Shown here piece after piece: positions 9,659 to 54,891 of a stretch of 64,000 bases of DNA (position 1 is its first letter; each line of letters begins with the position of its first letter). This DNA is from an uncultured Desulfobacterales bacterium (lineage in GTDB: Bacteria > Desulfobacterota > Desulfobacteria > Desulfobacterales > JAHEIW01): positions 27,984 to 91,983 of the forward strand of contig CAMYLV010000027.1 in the NCBI GenBank assembly GCA_947259495.1, written 5' to 3'. The translations under genes were made by a program, and so were the position numbers. The notes below the pieces were generated by a model. The model saw only the letters and a list, made by a program, of their open reading frames with translations. It had not been told where the DNA came from and did no database searches.

Positions 9659-9690
9659 AAGGCTCAATCTATTCAGATTGAGCCCTTTTT
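9659..9690 (-). terminator. Hairpin terminator, left copy of duplicated block
   Basis: AAGGCTCAATCT pairs with AGATTGAGCCCTT around ATTC, with T-rich flanks. It is nearly identical to the hairpin at 10050-10083 and sits at the same distance from a tRNA-Asn 3' end. This makes it part of a direct repeat flanking the GIY-YIG gene. The rest of 9394-9658 carries no gene; it presumably holds the promoter of the kinase operon, which I could not place. Confidence 0.65.
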
Positions 9691-9694
9691 ATAG

Positions 9695-9774
9695 TGGCTC
9701 CCCAGTCCGCCGCAGGCGGAAACCGCGGACCCGGTGGTTAATCCGCCGCAGGCGGACTCGCCTACTGAGCTACT
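9695..9774 (-). pseudogene. Broken tRNA-Asn copy with two hairpin replacements
   Basis: On the minus strand this matches the intact tRNA-Asn from GTAGCTCAGTAGGC through the CCA end. The first six acceptor bases are missing, replaced by the end of the GIY-YIG ORF. In two places about 10 nt of tRNA has been exchanged for the 15-nt hairpin TCCGCCTGCGGCGGA: once in the 5' strand of the anticodon stem and once in the T arm. It cannot fold as a tRNA. The GIY-YIG stop codon TAG is the TAG of this tRNA remnant. Confidence 0.8.
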
Positions 9775-10030
9775 TTTTCACAATCGTAGCTTTTATCCAT
9801 TCACGGCCTTGACCACTTTTCAGGAACCGCTCCCGGTTCATTGCTTCAGCGCGGGTGAGATATTCTTCAGAATAAATGAGTCGCCATGGTCCTTTTTGTT
9901 TGTGCGTATATCTCATTGATCCGGATTCGTCAGTGTTGTGACGCTCAATTCGTTTTTCCAGCTCTGAGGTATGACCCTTGTAAAGTTTGCCGGTCGTTTC
10001 GTTTTGAAGAATGTAAACCCAATATGTCAT
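9770..10030 (-). CDS. Small GIY-YIG nuclease domain protein
   Basis: The 86-aa product is a stand-alone GIY-YIG endonuclease domain. WVYILQN is the GIY-like strand, LYKGHTSELEKRIERHN carries the YIG-like strand (YKG) and catalytic arginine, and the catalytic glutamate region follows (EEYLTRAEAMNRERFLK). This is the UPF0213/SLX1-like small class; members nick DNA, but the role of the stand-alone bacterial ones is unclear. ATG 10030 is preferred over the track's 10060 start because the domain begins there. The gene lies between two copies of a terminator-plus-tRNA-Asn block and ends inside the broken copy, which suggests it arrived or was duplicated with tRNA-Asn DNA. Confidence 0.85.
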   Translation of the reverse strand: MTYWVYILQNETTGKLYKGHTSELEKRIERHNTDESGSMRYTHKQKGPWRLIYSEEYLTRAEAMNRERFLKSGQGREWIKATIVKK

Positions 10031-10049: not shown

Positions 10050-10083
10050 AAAAGGCTCAATCTCAGAAGATTGAGCCTTTTTT
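10050..10083 (-). terminator. Hairpin terminator downstream of tRNA-Asn
   Basis: AAAAGGCTCAATCT pairs with AGATTGAGCCTTTT around CAGA, a perfect 14-bp stem with T-rich sequence on both sides, so it can work in both directions. It lies between the tRNA 3' end and the GIY-YIG start. Its near-copy is at 9659-9690. Confidence 0.75.
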
Positions 10084-10087
10084 AAAG

Positions 10088-10163
10088 TGGCTCCCCAGCA
10101 CGGACTCGAACCGCGGACCCGGTGGTTAACAGCCACCTGCTCTGCCTACTGAGCTACTGGGGA
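10088..10163 (-). tRNA. tRNA-Asn (GTT), CCA encoded
   Basis: The 76-nt gene folds completely. The acceptor stem is TCCCCAG/CTGGGGA and the D arm GCTC/GAGC. The anticodon arm is GGTGG-CTGTTAA-CCACC with anticodon GTT at plus-strand 10128-10130. The T arm is CGCGG-TTCGAGT-CCGTG, with discriminator G and an encoded CCA. It reads asparagine codons AAC/AAU. It lies downstream of aspS on the same strand, separated by an array of partial copies of itself, and is followed by a perfect hairpin terminator. Confidence 0.97.
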
Positions 10164-10482
10164 ACATATTTATGAATAAAAGTTTACTCTAATTGATGTG
10201 TTTGTCCAGAACCCGGTGGTTAATCCGCCGCAGGCGGACTCTGCCTACTGAGCTACTGGGGAACATATTTATGAATAAAGCTACTGGGGAACATAATAAC
10301 GAATAAAAGTTTATGTAAATTACGATATTTGTCCAGAACCCGGTGGTTAATCCGCCACAGGCGGACTCTGCCTACTGAGCTACTGGGGAACATATTTATG
10401 AATAAAAGTTTACGTTAATTACAGTGTTTGTCCAGAACCCGGTGGTTAATCCGCCGCAGGCGGACTCTGCCTACTGAGCTAC
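10158..10482 (-). repeat. Tandem array of 99-bp repeats containing tRNA-Asn 5' halves
   Basis: Three units of exactly 99 bp lie at 10158-10256, 10285-10383 and 10384-10482, plus a 28-bp fragment at 10257-10284. On the minus strand each unit has the acceptor 5' strand, D arm and part of the anticodon arm of tRNA-Asn, then about 45 bp of AT-rich spacer containing TTTATTCATAAATATG. In every unit the 5' strand of the anticodon stem is replaced by the hairpin TCCGCCTGCGGCGGA (one unit has a single-base variant). The array fills the space between aspS and the intact tRNA; 10483-10566 beyond it shows no gene. Confidence 0.85.
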
Positions 10483-10566
10483 TGGGCATCAGACAAATTT
10501 GGTTAAATAATTGTTATTCTAACAAAAGTCAAGGAAAAATTCATCACGGCGTATCTTGGTGTTTGA

Positions 10567-12354
10567 TTATTTAGTTATCGGCTTCAGCTTTAGATAAAGC
10601 TCATCCAGCTGAGCTTTGCTGGTTTCTGCCGGCGCCTCGGTCAGCAGACAGGCCGCCTTCTGGGTCTTGGGAAAAGCGATCACATCCCGGATGGATGATT
10701 CAGCGCACATCAGCATCACCAGCCGATCAAAACCGATGGCAATGCCGCCATGGGGCGGTGCACCGGAATCCAGAGCATCAAGTAAAAAGCCGAATTTGTC
10801 TTCATAGGTCTTTCGATCCATATTCAGGGCCTCAAAGACTTTTTCCTGCAGACTGCGCTGATGGATCCGGATGCTGCCGCCGCCGATTTCAAAACCGTTT
10901 AGCACCAGATCATAGGCCCGGCTTTTCACCGCAAGGGGTTCTTTCGCAAGACGACCGTAATCCTCTTCCAACGGGGACGTAAATGGATGATGCAGAGCCT
11001 GCAGCCGCTTTTCGGTTTCATCATATTCAAACATCGGAAAGCGGGTTACCCACAAAAAACGATACTCATTGGCATCGATCAAACCCAGGATTTTGCCCAG
11101 ATGATTTCTAAGATAGCCCAGGGCCTCATTGACAATCTTGGGCTGATCGGCGACAAAAAATATCAGGTCTCCGGTCTCCATCTCGATCCGTTCGGCCAGA
11201 GCCTCTTTTTCCGCATCCGAAAAGAATTTTGTGATCGGAGATTGCCATTCATTTTCTTTGACTTTTATCCAGGCCATTCCTTTTGCCCGGTAAACACTGA
11301 CAAGATCGATCAAATCATCGATTTCCTTACGCGAAAAGTCAATGCATCCTTTGGCATTTAGAGCTTTGACAATACCGCCTTTTTTGACCGCATTGGCAAA
11401 AACCTTAAAGCTGGAACCGGCAACAATGTCGGAAATATCTTTAAGCTCCAAGCCAAAGCGGGTATCGGGCTTATCCAGTCCATAACGGCCAACCGCCTCT
11501 TCATAAGTTAATTGAGAAAACGGGCGCTTGAGTTTTACCCCGAGTACACGTTTAAAAAGCCGGGCCATCATGCCTTCGGTGAGGTTCATGACGTCGTCTT
11601 CGCCCACAAAAGACATTTCAATATCGATCTGGGTAAACTCGGGCTGTCGATCGGCTCGCAGGTCCTCATCCCGAAAGCACCGCACGATTTGATAATAACG
11701 GTCAAACCCGGATATCATAAAAAGCTGTTTGAATATTTGCGGCGATTGCGGCAGGGCATAAAATTGACCCGGATTGACCCGGCTGGGGACAAGATAGTCC
11801 CTGGCGCCTTCGGGAGTGCTGCGCGTTAAAAAGGGTGTTTCCAGATCGAGGAAACCGTTTCTATTGAGATATTCTCTGACCGCAGCCGTGGTCCGGTGCC
11901 GCAGAACAAGATTTTTTTGCATTTCGGGTCGCCGCAGATCCAGGTGCCGATATTTGAGCCGGATGGTTTCAGAAGCATCAATCTCATCTTCGATCAGAAA
12001 CGGCGGGGTATTGGCCTTGTTTAAAAGCCTGAATTCAGTGACGGCAACTTCAATCTCGCCGGTCTTCAATTTAGTATTAATCATGTCTGCTGGCCGGTTC
12101 TCGACTTTGCCGCGCACCGCCAGCACATATTCATTGCGGATGGCGTGGGCCTTGGCATGAATCTTTTTGTCTACCTTCGGATTGAACACAACCTGGGTGA
12201 TACCTTCCCGATCCCGTAAGTCCACAAAGATCACGCCCCCGTGATCCCGTCGCCGATGGACCCAACCCATTAAAACCACTTCCTTATCAACGTCACCGGC
12301 ATCGAGCTCCCAGCAATGATGCGTTCTGCGCATGCTACCGAGTTGATCTGACAA
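10567..12354 (-). CDS. aspS: Aspartyl-tRNA synthetase
   Basis: AspRS charges tRNA-Asp with aspartate in the cytoplasm; many bacterial forms without AsnRS also charge tRNA-Asn. The 595-aa length is typical of bacterial AspRS: N-terminal OB-fold anticodon-binding domain (about 1-110), class II catalytic core interrupted by a GAD insertion, motif 2 FRDEDLRADRQPEFTQ, and C-terminal motif 3 GIAIGFDRLVML. The start is the TTG at 12354, because GGGAGA lies 5 nt upstream; the next ATG (12333) has no ribosome site. The nearest downstream gene on this strand is tRNA-Asn, which makes a non-discriminating enzyme worth testing. Specificity cannot be read from sequence here. Confidence 0.95.
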   Translation of the reverse strand: MSDQLGSMRRTHHCWELDAGDVDKEVVLMGWVHRRRDHGGVIFVDLRDREGITQVVFNPKVDKKIHAKAHAIRNEYVLAVRGKVENRPADMINTKLKTGEIEVAVTEFRLLNKANTPPFLIEDEIDASETIRLKYRHLDLRRPEMQKNLVLRHRTTAAVREYLNRNGFLDLETPFLTRSTPEGARDYLVPSRVNPGQFYALPQSPQIFKQLFMISGFDRYYQIVRCFRDEDLRADRQPEFTQIDIEMSFVGEDDVMNLTEGMMARLFKRVLGVKLKRPFSQLTYEEAVGRYGLDKPDTRFGLELKDISDIVAGSSFKVFANAVKKGGIVKALNAKGCIDFSRKEIDDLIDLVSVYRAKGMAWIKVKENEWQSPITKFFSDAEKEALAERIEMETGDLIFFVADQPKIVNEALGYLRNHLGKILGLIDANEYRFLWVTRFPMFEYDETEKRLQALHHPFTSPLEEDYGRLAKEPLAVKSRAYDLVLNGFEIGGGSIRIHQRSLQEKVFEALNMDRKTYEDKFGFLLDALDSGAPPHGGIAIGFDRLVMLMCAESSIRDVIAFPKTQKAACLLTEAPAETSKAQLDELYLKLKPITK

Positions 12355-12436: not shown

Positions 12437-12535
12437 AGTGTGTTTGGTATTTGGTGTTTAGTGTTTAGAGCTCTAACATCTCGATATAGCATCATAAACT
12501 TCATGCCAAACACCAAACACGAAACACCAAACACT
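12437..12535. repeat. Low-complexity inverted repeat (CCAAACACCAAACAC word)
   Basis: The left arm GTGTTTGGTATTTGGTG-type (12437-12470) is complementary to the right arm CCAAACACCAAACACGAAAC-type (12503-12535). The arms consist of AACACC words every 7-8 nt. It fills the hisS-aspS gap and its right end touches the hisS stop codon. Confidence 0.65.
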
Positions 12536-13788
12536 TAATAAATCCGATTTTTTATAGCTTCAACCAGACCATCGAGGGGAATTGACGCCTGGTCTTTGGT
12601 TTTCATATTTCGCAGGATGGCCTCACCTTTTGCAAGCTCGTCGTCCCCCACAATCAGAACATGATCGGCCGCAAGCCGGTCGGCCCGTTTCATCTGGCTT
12701 TTTAGGCTTTTGCCGGCAAAATCCAGTTCCGCCCGAATGCCTTCATCACCGAGGGCACAGATCCATTCAAAAGCCAATAAACGGCTCTTATCCCCCAAAG
12801 CCGCCACGAAAATATCCGGTTTTCTGTAAAATTGGCTGGCAGCAAGCCCGGTCAATTCAGTGAGCCTGTCAAAACCAATGGCAAAGCCGGTTGCCGGAAT
12901 GTCCGGCCCGCCCAGTTCGCTGACCAGTCCATCGTAACGGCCGCCGCCGGCAACGGCATTCTGGGCCCCCAGGGATCCTGTTTGAATCTCAAAAGTAGTG
13001 CGTGCATAATAGTCCAGCCCGCGCACTAAATTCTTATCAACCACAAAGGGAACGCCCAGCTTTTGCAGCATATTTTGCACCTCGTCAAAATCTGCTTTGC
13101 ACTCCGAACAGAGGTGATCGATAATTGCGGGGGCATCAGCCACGGCCGCCCTGCAGGCCGGCACCTTGCAGTCCAACACCCTCAACGGATTACGGTCCTT
13201 GCGTCGTATGCAATCGGCGCACAGCTGATCACTGACGGATGCAAAAAATTCCGATAAGGCGGCTTTGAATTGCGGCCGGCATTTCGGGCAGCCCAGAGAG
13301 TTGATGTGCGTTATGACATCTGCGACTTCCAGTCGCGCAAACAATCTCACCAGAAGAAAAATAAGCTGGACATCGACCAGCCCGGATTGGACACCAAAGA
13401 TCTCGGCATTAATCTGATAAAACTGCCGGTACCTTCCCTTCTGCGGCCGCTCGCGGCGAAACATAGGGCCAATGGTGTAGAATTTTTGGACCGGATCTTT
13501 GGCATACAGGCGGTGCTGAATGTAGGCCCGCACAATCGAAGCGGTGGCTTCCGGGCGCAGGGTTATGAGGTCGCCTTTGCGATCCGGAAAGGTGTACATT
13601 TCTTTTTCGACGATGTCGGTATCCTCACCGATGCTTCTGGCAAAAAGTTCGGTTCGCTCCACAATGGGGATGCGGATCTCTTTAAAGCCGAAATCCTCCA
13701 GAAGCTCGCGTGCAACTTTTTCAACTGCCTGCCAGAGCTCGACTTCGCCGGGAAGAATATCTTTAAATCCTCTGATTAACTGGATCAT
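12535..13788 (-). CDS. hisS: Histidyl-tRNA synthetase
   Basis: HisRS charges tRNA-His with histidine. From ATG 13788 the 417-aa protein shows class II motifs: RGFKDILPGE at the N terminus, motif 2 FRRERPQKGRYRQFYQ, the histidine-specific RGLDYYARTTFE, then motif 3 GFAIGFDRL and a C-terminal anticodon-binding domain. An insertion with CPKC, CADC and a further Cys pair (about residues 165-235) may bind zinc; similar cysteines occur in several bacterial HisRS. ATG 13788 is preferred over the track's TTG at 13797 because GAAGGA is then about 11 nt upstream. It is upstream of aspS on the same strand with a 180-nt gap, a common bacterial pairing. Confidence 0.95.
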   Translation of the reverse strand: MIQLIRGFKDILPGEVELWQAVEKVARELLEDFGFKEIRIPIVERTELFARSIGEDTDIVEKEMYTFPDRKGDLITLRPEATASIVRAYIQHRLYAKDPVQKFYTIGPMFRRERPQKGRYRQFYQINAEIFGVQSGLVDVQLIFLLVRLFARLEVADVITHINSLGCPKCRPQFKAALSEFFASVSDQLCADCIRRKDRNPLRVLDCKVPACRAAVADAPAIIDHLCSECKADFDEVQNMLQKLGVPFVVDKNLVRGLDYYARTTFEIQTGSLGAQNAVAGGGRYDGLVSELGGPDIPATGFAIGFDRLTELTGLAASQFYRKPDIFVAALGDKSRLLAFEWICALGDEGIRAELDFAGKSLKSQMKRADRLAADHVLIVGDDELAKGEAILRNMKTKDQASIPLDGLVEAIKNRIY

Positions 13789-52257: not shown

Positions 52258-52470
52258 GTAATATTTATAGGGGTTGTCAAAAAAGCGTTGCGGTATTTAT
52301 AGGGGTTGTCAAAAAAGCGTTGCGGTATTCAAACGTTTTTTTCTACAAACCCTTATGCCGCACTACTGTATTTCGAAACATAATTATGGAAAACGGTACA
52401 AACGTTTATTTCTACAACCCCTTATACCGCACTTCCGTCTTCCGGAAGATTATTATGGAAAAAGGTATAA
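52258..52470 (+). repeat. MITE-like hairpin element, copy 2, internally duplicated
   Basis: The left arm (TATAGGGGTTGTC followed by AAAAAAGCGTTGCGGTAT) occurs twice in direct tandem. The right half (TCTACAA-CCCTTAT followed by a CCGCACT...ATTATGGAAAA tail) also occurs twice. It looks like a nested or unequal duplication of the 105-bp element seen intact at 54.9 kb. Its right end runs to the base before the penicillin-acylase ATG and supplies the AAAGGT-like ribosome site. Confidence 0.7.
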
Positions 52471-54891
52471 ATGAAGCGGTTGTACAAAATTATGTTCATC
52501 ACCTTCCTGCTGGCGGCGATTTTGATTGCAGGTGGTGGTATTTATCTGCAGCAACTGAAGCCGCAATATTCAGGCGAACGGGTTCTTCCGGGCCTTCACC
52601 AGAAAGTGGAAGTCTATTTTGATCCATGGGCCGTCCCGCATATCTACGCCCTGAACGAAGCGGATGCCTATTTTGCGCTGGGATATGTCCATGCGCAGGA
52701 ACGCCTTTTCCAGATGGAGATCTTGCGACGGATTGCCGCCGGGCGCATGGCCGAAATATTCGGTGAAAAGCTGGTTAGAACAGACCGCTTTTTCCGAACC
52801 ATCGGAATCGATCAGAGTGCCAAACGGTCGGCAGAAAAATTTTTTAGCAAAGATGCAAAGTCATACCAAAAAGCCGGGCGGGCCTATCTGGCCGGGGTCA
52901 ACCAGTACATCGCAAAAGGAAAAACGCCGATTGAGTTTCGCATCCTGAGGATCCCCAAAGAAAAATTTACGCCTCAGGATTTTTACCTGGTGGCGGGGAT
53001 TATGGCATTCGGTTTTTCCCAGGGCTTTCGGACTGATCCGCTGGTCGCCAAAATTCACCAAAATTACGGATGGCCCTACCTGAAAGATTGGGGGCTGGGG
53101 TGGCCTGAAGGCGCCCTGAAAATTCCGGTTCAACGATCAAATTTTAGTCCATCAGCTGCCAGGTTAATTGCTGCAATCATGCCCATCATCGACCGGCTGC
53201 CAGCTGCGGCATGGATCGGCAGCAACGGCTGGGTGATCTCCGGCCAAAAAACCACATCGGGAAAGGTTCTTCTGGCCAATGACACCCACATTCTGTTTAC
53301 CCAGCCTTCGGTGTGGTACGAAGCCCACCTTGAATATCCCGGATCCAGCTTCTACGGATTTTTTGCAGCCGGAATCCCTTTTGGCCTTGTCGGCCGCAAT
53401 CGCTCGATTGCATGGGGACTGACCATGCTCCACAATGACGACATTGATTTTTTTCGGGAGCGGGCCAACCCGAAGGACGCCGATCAGGTCTGGGTCGATG
53501 ATCACTGGGAAAATCTGGAAATCCGAACAGAAACGATTCAGGTTCGAAATGCTGAGGATGTGAGCTTTAAGGTGCGGGTGTCGCGCCACGGCCCCCTGCT
53601 GAATTCGGTTGATGAAACCGTGGCCGCGACAACTTCCGACCCCATTTCGTTATGGTGGACCTTTAATCAATTTCCGAGTACGTCCATCCAGGCGGCCTAT
53701 CAATTTTCCCGCGCCCGGAATATCGAAGAGATGCGCCGGGCCGCCGCGCTCATTGATGCACCGGGGGTCAACATCATGTATGGTGACCAAAACGGCAATA
53801 TTGCCTGGTGGGCGGCCGCCCGTCTGTTGAGGCGCCCGGCACACGTGAATCCCAAACTGTTTCTGGATGGGGCCAGCGGAAAAGATGAGCCGCTCGGTTA
53901 TTATGACTTCACTGAAAACCCCCAATCGGAAAACCCGCCAAGCGGCTTTGTTTATTCGGCCAACAATCAACCGGAACCGTTGACAGACCGGTTGTACCCC
54001 GGTTATTACGTGCCGGACCATCGGGCCAGACGCATTGTGGCCTTTTTGGAATCAGACACCGTCTGGTCGGTTGAGGCCGTAAAAGAAATGGGAACCGATA
54101 GTGTATCACCGGCAGCGCCTGAAATGACCCGTGAAATTTTAAATACCGTTTATGATAAAGAGCGCAATGCAAAATCGCCACTTGTTGAAAAAGCCTATCG
54201 AGTTCTGGAGCAATGGGATGGCGACCATCAAACAGATGATGTGGCCCCCACCATTTTCTATAAACTTCTCGCTCATATTGCTGAAAACACGTTTGCCGAC
54301 GAATTGGGAAAGGATGATTATCAAACCTTTATGACGACCCATTTGATGAAACGCTCCCTGCCGGTGATTCTCCAAAACAATTCATCTTTGTGGTGGGATA
54401 ACATCCACACTCAAGACATCAAAGAGACACGTAAAATGGTCTTTGCTCAATCCTTTGAGCGGACCCTGCAGGATTTGGAAAAACAATTGGGCCCTGTCAT
54501 TTCCGATTGGCACTGGGGGAAAGTCCACACCCTGGAACATCAGCACCTGCTCGGCAGGAAAAAACCGCTGGATAAATGGTTTAATGTCGGGCCGTTTTCG
54601 ATACAGGGGGGCGATGAGGTGATCGCCAATCTGGCCTTTCGGCTCAACACCGAAGGCCGCTACCCGGTGCTCTACGGACCCGCCATGCGTTTTGTTGTCG
54701 ATTTTTCCAAAACCGACGGTGCCCTGGGGATAAACCCGACCGGGCAGTCAGGTTATTTTTTAAGCCGCCACTACGACGACCAGACAACGTTATTCAACAC
54801 TGGAAAATTGCGACCCCAGATGATGAACGCAATTAAAATCCGGCAGAATCATAAGGGCAATTTGATTTTAAGGCCTGCTAAGGAAAATTAA
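52471..54891 (+). CDS. Penicillin acylase family (S45) N-terminal-nucleophile hydrolase
   Basis: The 806-aa precursor should self-cleave into alpha and beta chains. The N-terminal signal anchor (about residues 5-27) directs it to the periplasm. The alpha part contains GYVHAQERLFQMEILRR. The beta chain starts at the predicted nucleophile Ser in IGSNGWVISG, with NDTHILFTQPSVWYE and RNRSIAWGLTMLHND as further family motifs. S45 enzymes hydrolyse amides: beta-lactam side chains, acyl-homoserine lactones or cyclic lipopeptides. The natural substrate here is unknown. The gene lies between two MITE-like elements, one abutting the start and one beginning 11 nt after the stop, so it may be mobilised or expressed by them. 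Confidence 0.9.
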   Translation: MKRLYKIMFITFLLAAILIAGGGIYLQQLKPQYSGERVLPGLHQKVEVYFDPWAVPHIYALNEADAYFALGYVHAQERLFQMEILRRIAAGRMAEIFGEKLVRTDRFFRTIGIDQSAKRSAEKFFSKDAKSYQKAGRAYLAGVNQYIAKGKTPIEFRILRIPKEKFTPQDFYLVAGIMAFGFSQGFRTDPLVAKIHQNYGWPYLKDWGLGWPEGALKIPVQRSNFSPSAARLIAAIMPIIDRLPAAAWIGSNGWVISGQKTTSGKVLLANDTHILFTQPSVWYEAHLEYPGSSFYGFFAAGIPFGLVGRNRSIAWGLTMLHNDDIDFFRERANPKDADQVWVDDHWENLEIRTETIQVRNAEDVSFKVRVSRHGPLLNSVDETVAATTSDPISLWWTFNQFPSTSIQAAYQFSRARNIEEMRRAAALIDAPGVNIMYGDQNGNIAWWAAARLLRRPAHVNPKLFLDGASGKDEPLGYYDFTENPQSENPPSGFVYSANNQPEPLTDRLYPGYYVPDHRARRIVAFLESDTVWSVEAVKEMGTDSVSPAAPEMTREILNTVYDKERNAKSPLVEKAYRVLEQWDGDHQTDDVAPTIFYKLLAHIAENTFADELGKDDYQTFMTTHLMKRSLPVILQNNSSLWWDNIHTQDIKETRKMVFAQSFERTLQDLEKQLGPVISDWHWGKVHTLEHQHLLGRKKPLDKWFNVGPFSIQGGDEVIANLAFRLNTEGRYPVLYGPAMRFVVDFSKTDGALGINPTGQSGYFLSRHYDDQTTLFNTGKLRPQMMNAIKIRQNHKGNLILRPAKEN

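Follow-up and report, generated by a model that had tools for sequence, protein, structure and literature searches.

Broken copies of tRNA-Asn are arrayed upstream of the intact gene

The window, i.e., the whole stretch of 64,000 nucleotides of DNA analyzed here, raises the question of why tandem repeats built from tRNA-Asn sequence should lie between aspS and the tRNA-Asn gene itself. The array is on the minus strand, with aspS (10567..12354, minus strand; Pfam tRNA-synt_2/GAD and synteny), the upstream neighbor of tRNA-Asn, on one side and the intact tRNA-Asn gene (10088..10163) on the other, and the first-pass annotation was right about the position, strand, and tRNA-Asn origin of the repeats. 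It had described them as three exact 99-bp repeats; the repeats are real and the units number three, but their starts are spaced by 99, 127, and 99 bp, and the two 99-bp units are identical at 94 of 99 positions. The fourth start is that of the intact tRNA-Asn, so that the array is in register with the gene. More specifically, sequence comparison delimited unit A (10385..10483, 99 bp) and unit C (10159..10257, 99 bp), each consisting of a 5′ tRNA-Asn remnant plus spacer, and, together with TRF (91% matches at periods 99 and 127), the middle unit B (10258..10384, 127 bp), which additionally carries an internal 28-bp partial duplication; all three are on the minus strand.

Each unit comprises tRNA positions 1-24 (3-24 in the outermost one), a 15-bp palindrome, TCCGCCnnnGGCGGA, that substitutes for positions 25-34, and, following it, positions 35-47 and an AT-rich spacer, that of unit C directly preceding the intact tRNA-Asn. 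Pattern search combined with tRNA alignment placed the palindromes, which have the form TCCGCC-TGC/TGT-GGCGGA, at 10450..10464 (unit A), 10351..10365 (unit B), and 10224..10238 (unit C). The spacer of each unit also contains a promoter-like TGGACA-16-TAAACT, and the unit folds better than shuffled sequences (z -2.9). What we presume to be the native tRNA-Asn promoter, TTGACT-17-TATTTA (10504..10532, minus strand), was recognized by eye, with a similar TTGACTT preceding tRNA-Asn at empty sites (see below), and is now located upstream of the first remnant. The array is not due to chance, and the existence of equivalent arrays in other genomes argues against an assembly artifact. Its repeats are broken, hairpin-marked copies of the sole intact tRNA-Asn gene.

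The array is the left flank of a larger element encoding a GIY-YIG nuclease

The array belongs to a larger element and forms its left flank. The order of the element is 5′ tRNA remnants, intact tRNA, terminator, a gene for an 86-aa GIY-YIG protein, and a 3′ remnant with two palindromes. The intact tRNA-Asn(GTT) identified by tRNA scan at 10088..10163 (minus strand), which we propose to be a rescue copy, has no intron and is the sole intact tRNA-Asn found in this 97%-complete genome; its location next to aspS is conserved in several relatives. It is followed by a stem-loop with a T tract (10050..10084, minus strand), the presumed tRNA terminator, which is evident in the sequence and missing from the consensus terminator scan. 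The nuclease gene (9770..10030, minus strand; 86 aa from ATG) is free-standing, i.e., directly downstream of the intact tRNA-Asn and outside any intron. Its product matches PF01541 (E 9e-15; 55.1 bits versus a cut-off of 22.6), retains the Tyr, Tyr-x-Gly, Arg, and Glu residues conserved in an alignment of its relatives, and has the UPF0213 structures 1zg2 and 1ywl as relatives in the PDB; judged by sequence, it is a member of the GIY-YIG nuclease superfamily.

The TAG stop codon of this gene falls inside the 3′ tRNA-Asn remnant (9695..9774, minus strand), in which tRNA alignment shows positions 25-34 and 56-65 to be replaced by two palindromes, one in the anticodon arm (9742..9756) and one in the T arm (9706..9720), both located by pattern search and tRNA alignment. 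A terminator-like stem-loop found by consensus scan (9661..9684) lies beyond the remnant. No integrase was detected by Pfam scan among seven neighboring genes. The first-pass annotation had missed the palindrome swap, the palindrome copies, the 3′ remnant past the GIY-YIG gene, and the promoter-like sites in the spacers. Two further repeats of the window are recorded here: ‘CCAAACA’ heptamer repeats at 12470-12540, between aspS and hisS, and two adjoining tandem arrays detected by TRF at 52262-52471, with 32-bp and 69-bp periods.

The layout recurs at several tRNA types and in several phyla

Public genomes and a set of 395 genomes from the same phylum supplied the relatives of the nuclease; by appearance, the genomes compared are mostly fragmented drafts. 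Within the phylum the layout is found again in other genomes, and beyond it in five more phyla, in association with several tRNA types; pairing of a GIY-YIG gene with a tRNA was found in relatives from Bacteroidota, Nitrospirota, Methylomirabilota, Omnitrophota, and Patescibacteria. An intact tRNA gene on the same strand precedes, by less than 150 bp, 43 of 152 small GIY-YIG ORFs, a set in which some loci were sampled twice and which includes ~30 Bradyrhizobium-type relatives, none of them next to tRNAs; the corresponding numbers for other placements are 0 (upstream, opposite strand), 4 (downstream, same strand), and 0 (downstream, opposite strand). The partner tRNAs are Asn, Asp, Ala, Leu, Phe, Ser, Met, and Lys. 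Remnants of the partner tRNA accompany 36 of 50 ORF/tRNA pairs (5′ remnants in 20, 3′ remnants in 31), with loci L110 and L147 counted more than once, and the other 14 pairs have no remnant at the threshold used.

Arrays are likewise not confined to the window. The same locus in a genome of the same genus (G001) carries tandem units of period 100, the aspS contig and the tRNA contig each ending within the array, and in a Desulfobacteraceae genome (L052) a palindrome occupies the same tRNA position as in the window. Listed by genome, tandem arrays of 5′ remnants were found elsewhere in G181, G308, G110, and G030, and G329 has tandem 3′ remnants carrying another hairpin; listed by locus, 5′-type arrays are at L115, L128, L140, and L215 and a 3′-type array at L106. 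Tandem remnant arrays recur independently, and stacked cassettes are also seen in the comparative data. We found no description of a bacterial arrangement like this one in the open-access literature.

Small GIY-YIG genes were also observed near a tmRNA gene (L144:1973-2324, minus strand) and an SRP RNA gene (L135:791-889, plus strand), and the family may reside at other stable-RNA genes too. At locus L139, at least four strong hairpins occur in a run between tRNA-Ser and the GIY-YIG ORF.

Hairpins replace tRNA segments with exact borders

Within the window, TCCGCCnnnGGCGGA occurs five times at the locus, with one further match, at one mismatch, elsewhere (0.21 expected from shuffles); it is present 55 times in the genome, versus 0 for the reversed control. 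In tRNA-Asn remnants from 10 genomes, the replaced segment is exactly 10 nt (positions 25-34), whereas remnants of tRNA-Asp (7 genomes) and tRNA-Ala (3 genomes) have exactly the 17-nt anticodon arm replaced. The replacement hairpins measure 11-21 nt and vary in sequence between lineages. Of 49 gaps, 35 contain a perfect stem of 5 bp or more, compared with 3.5 in shuffles, each tandem copy being counted singly, so that not all gaps are independent. In some remnants it is instead the anticodon stem that has lost its 3′ strand, or the D or T arm that is partly missing. We know of no mechanism for an exact exchange of an anticodon arm for a hairpin, and such an exchange, involving different sequences across many genomes, represents a strange and testable DNA change.

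Similar hairpins or palindromes are dispersed in many of the genomes. An explanation of the hairpin as purely a dispersed repeat is weakened by genome G329, the hairpin of which occurs at its own locus only. Across 39 relatives, palindrome number correlates with the number of small GIY-YIG genes (Spearman 0.51, p 0.001), a figure that is uncorrected for kinship and carries little weight.

Orthologous sites are empty or filled, and nucleases cluster by tRNA type

Four relatives of the same order (G006, G015, G017, and G028) have the arrangement aspS, promoter, tRNA-Asn, and terminator without a cassette, while the aspS/tRNA-Asn site is filled in the window genome, G001, and G030, among which the spacers appear unrelated. 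A tree of 48 nucleases shows 11 changes of tRNA type compared with 25.4 in shuffles, none of 200 shuffles being as low; the underlying alignment is short and leaves many forks unresolved, and the tree was used solely for label clustering. As a pointer to target-site specificity, this clustering is indirect. The Asp and Asn nuclease groups span many host families, and two genomes (G308 and G046) each have nucleases of two tRNA types. In another genome of the same genus (G002), locus L203 holds a tRNA-Asn and a single hairpin remnant in inverted orientation to aspS, and the stretch examined there gave no GIY-YIG match; it possibly represents a state of cassette loss.

A homing cassette parasitizing tRNA genes is the likely explanation

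What was observed directly comprises the anatomy, its recurrence, the exact swap borders, the clustering of nucleases by isotype, and the empty versus filled sites. From these we infer cleavage, mobility, and transcription, and we regard the locus as a likely free-standing GIY-YIG homing cassette directed at tRNA genes, with the array as its left flank. A small selfish gene that cuts DNA and invades tRNA genes probably left the remnants behind or carried them along. In cassette-free cells, the nuclease would cut the anticodon-arm region of tRNA-Asn genes, and the broken ends would be repaired off the cassette, the left half of the tRNA being matched by the 5′ remnant(s) and the right half by the 3′ remnant. 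The remnants themselves would be neither cut nor read as tRNA, because a hairpin replaces their anticodon-arm segment, and the intact copy in the cassette would substitute for the interrupted essential tRNA (‘home and rescue’). A tandem array could then grow from a 5′ remnant as copies of unit and spacer recombine, possibly triggered by nuclease cuts. Double-strand-break repair from a donor that shares with a foreign recipient no homology but the tRNA gene would fit the anatomy. The first-pass annotation had offered, as an alternative, that the array arose incidentally as cassettes were repeatedly inserted and lost, which comes close to the data, i.e., the empty and filled orthologous sites, nuclease-free remnants, stacked cassettes, and independent arrays.

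Several points weigh against this model, among them the 14 pairs lacking a remnant and the draft state of most genomes. Self-cutting must be limited somehow, because the rescue tRNA retains the presumed cut site, and the model does not explain why the mark of a remnant is a perfect hairpin instead of point mutations. Since similar hairpins are dispersed in many genomes, the hairpins could have another origin. It is possible, although we would stop short of calling it probable, that these elements are widespread, natural home-and-rescue drives of bacteria acting on essential tRNA genes, each with a minimal GIY-YIG nuclease, a rescue tRNA, and tRNA-half homology arms in which a dedicated or self-templated process put a hairpin where the anticodon-arm cut site had been, the arrays recording repeated rounds. 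If the homing model is true, the element would be a chromosomal bacterial counterpart of phage SegB that is aimed at indispensable tRNA genes, the spare tRNA it carries would keep it from killing its host, and odd tRNA pseudogene clusters and misannotated tRNAs (e.g., ‘tRNA-Asp(atc)’) in metagenome-derived genomes would be accounted for.

Among other explanations, passive decay would have tandem duplicates of tRNA-Asn turn into pseudogenes that were struck by a genome-wide palindromic repeat, with the GIY-YIG gene as a bystander. Although the dispersal of the 55 copies of TCCGCCnnnGGCGGA and the presence of nuclease-free remnants beside tRNA genes of the same genome accord with such decay, we consider it unlikely, given that the 10-nt or 17-nt borders are identical in many genomes despite different hairpin sequences; that the nuclease, when a tRNA is near, is nearly always downstream of the intact tRNA on the same strand; that it tracks tRNA type; and that the G329 hairpin is restricted to its locus. 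It is also improbable that the array functions as RNA, its transcribed, hairpin-bearing 5′ halves serving as decoys or regulators of the nuclease, RNase P, or aminoacylation. The presumed native tRNA promoter does lie upstream of the units, which have promoter-like sites of their own and fold better than shuffles; however, unit number ranges from 0 upward, the spacers of the three filled sites seem unrelated, remnants may represent either half, 5′ or 3′, of several tRNA types, and no conserved RNA is seen apart from tRNA and hairpin. The related earlier proposal that tRNA-half RNAs bind AspRS, RNase P, or the GIY-YIG enzyme found no support: AspRS is merely a neighbor, similar remnants flank Asp, Ala, Leu, Phe, and Ser tRNAs elsewhere, and isotype follows the nuclease. 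The array has no visible connection to aspS and does not itself constitute evidence for tRNA-half regulatory RNAs, and an AspRS-binding RNA is rejected on anatomy.

GIY-YIG enzymes are in general DNA nucleases, which counts against a reading in which the protein is an anticodon nuclease that targets tRNA and arm-swapped tRNA copies act as resistant decoys. The swapped part is mostly the anticodon arm region, and isotypes cluster on the nuclease tree, as such a reading would have it; many remnants, however, are half molecules, and presence or absence at orthologous sites fits mobility better, making an anticodon nuclease very improbable in our estimation. Hardly credible, finally, are attachment-site scars of an integrase-type element that uses tRNA genes: a presumed mobile gene is indeed flanked by tRNA duplications, but the seven neighboring genes scanned include no integrase, and the 5′ halves and internal hairpin swaps among the remnants are unlike simple 3′-end repeats, such that this candidate was rejected on anatomy.

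The closest precedents are phage SegB and mitochondrial mORFs

Judged by its construction, which is like that of SegB and mORF elements, its closest precedents, the element under the homing model is best filed among free-standing homing endonuclease genes. The tRNA region of phages T4 and T6 has SegB, a free-standing GIY-YIG homing endonuclease for which, in the cited excerpts, cutting of tRNA-containing sequences is reported (PMC2988022; PMC13096335), and in phage T6 it is described there as required for tandem amplification of the tRNA-Tyr/segB unit by recombination (PMC13096335), which by analogy would be a direct precedent for tandem growth of the array. Both are free-standing GIY-YIG nuclease genes adjoining tRNA genes; SegB is a phage protein for which these excerpts describe no hairpin-swapped tRNA remnants, whereas the gene in the window resides in a chromosome, its 86-aa product amounts to a bare GIY-YIG domain, and the intact host tRNA that precedes it is apparently present in a single copy. 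A tblastn search of the nuclease against a phage collection gave three weak hits, none labeled SegB.

The mORFs of Allomyces and Glomus mitochondria (atp6, atp9, cox2, and nad3) are endonuclease ORFs whose insertion brings along a substitute for the gene end that they displace, the native 3′ end staying downstream as a duplicate, and the one in atp9 is of the GIY-YIG type, according to the portions cited (PMC3630166); by analogy, they would be the precedent for gene-end displacement. As far as these portions go, mORFs concern mitochondrial protein genes of which the C-terminal part alone is replaced, versus a whole rescue gene here, and neither hairpin marks nor 5′ remnant arrays are described for them. 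GIY-YIG ORFs also occur in insertion sequences of CPR rRNA genes (PMC11270868) and are, like the ORF in the window, in bacterial stable-RNA genes outside group I or II introns; they interrupt rRNA genes, and the word tRNA is absent from that paper. REP elements (20-40 bp; PMC3733652) and Rickettsia palindromic elements are likewise short palindromes dispersed in bacterial genomes. Tagged ends and an associated transposase are further hallmarks of REP elements, whereas here, unlike in REP elements, a hairpin of 11-21 nt (15 bp in the window) replaces a fixed tRNA segment.

Other elements and repeats

The window genome contains a second element of the same kind at tRNA-Asp (L016/G000:C15, about 58.3-59.0 kb), in the order tRNA-Val remnant, tRNA-Val, tRNA-Asp remnant, tRNA-Asp, GIY-YIG, and tRNA-Asp remnant, whose anticodon-arm-swapped tRNA-Asp copy is scored by ARAGORN as tRNA-Asp(atc). 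Remnants with no nuclease gene in view adjoin tRNA-Glu and two tRNA-Arg genes, and in that of tRNA-Glu the 17-nt anticodon arm is exchanged for a hairpin. The genome's own tRNA genes served as the control, an earlier control set being biased toward loci picked for palindromes or GIY-YIG genes; 28 of the 35 tRNA genes examined have no remnant.

Dispersed intergenic repeats carry TCCGCCnnnGGCGGA at one point, sometimes nested with more palindromes (e.g., L003, L012, L013, L015, L023, L025, L030, and L035). A second dispersed family, ‘gcgctaa TCCGCCTGAGGCGGA gaaaactcgg’, is represented by at least eight similar copies (L002, L008, L029, L033, L042, L044, L046, and L048).
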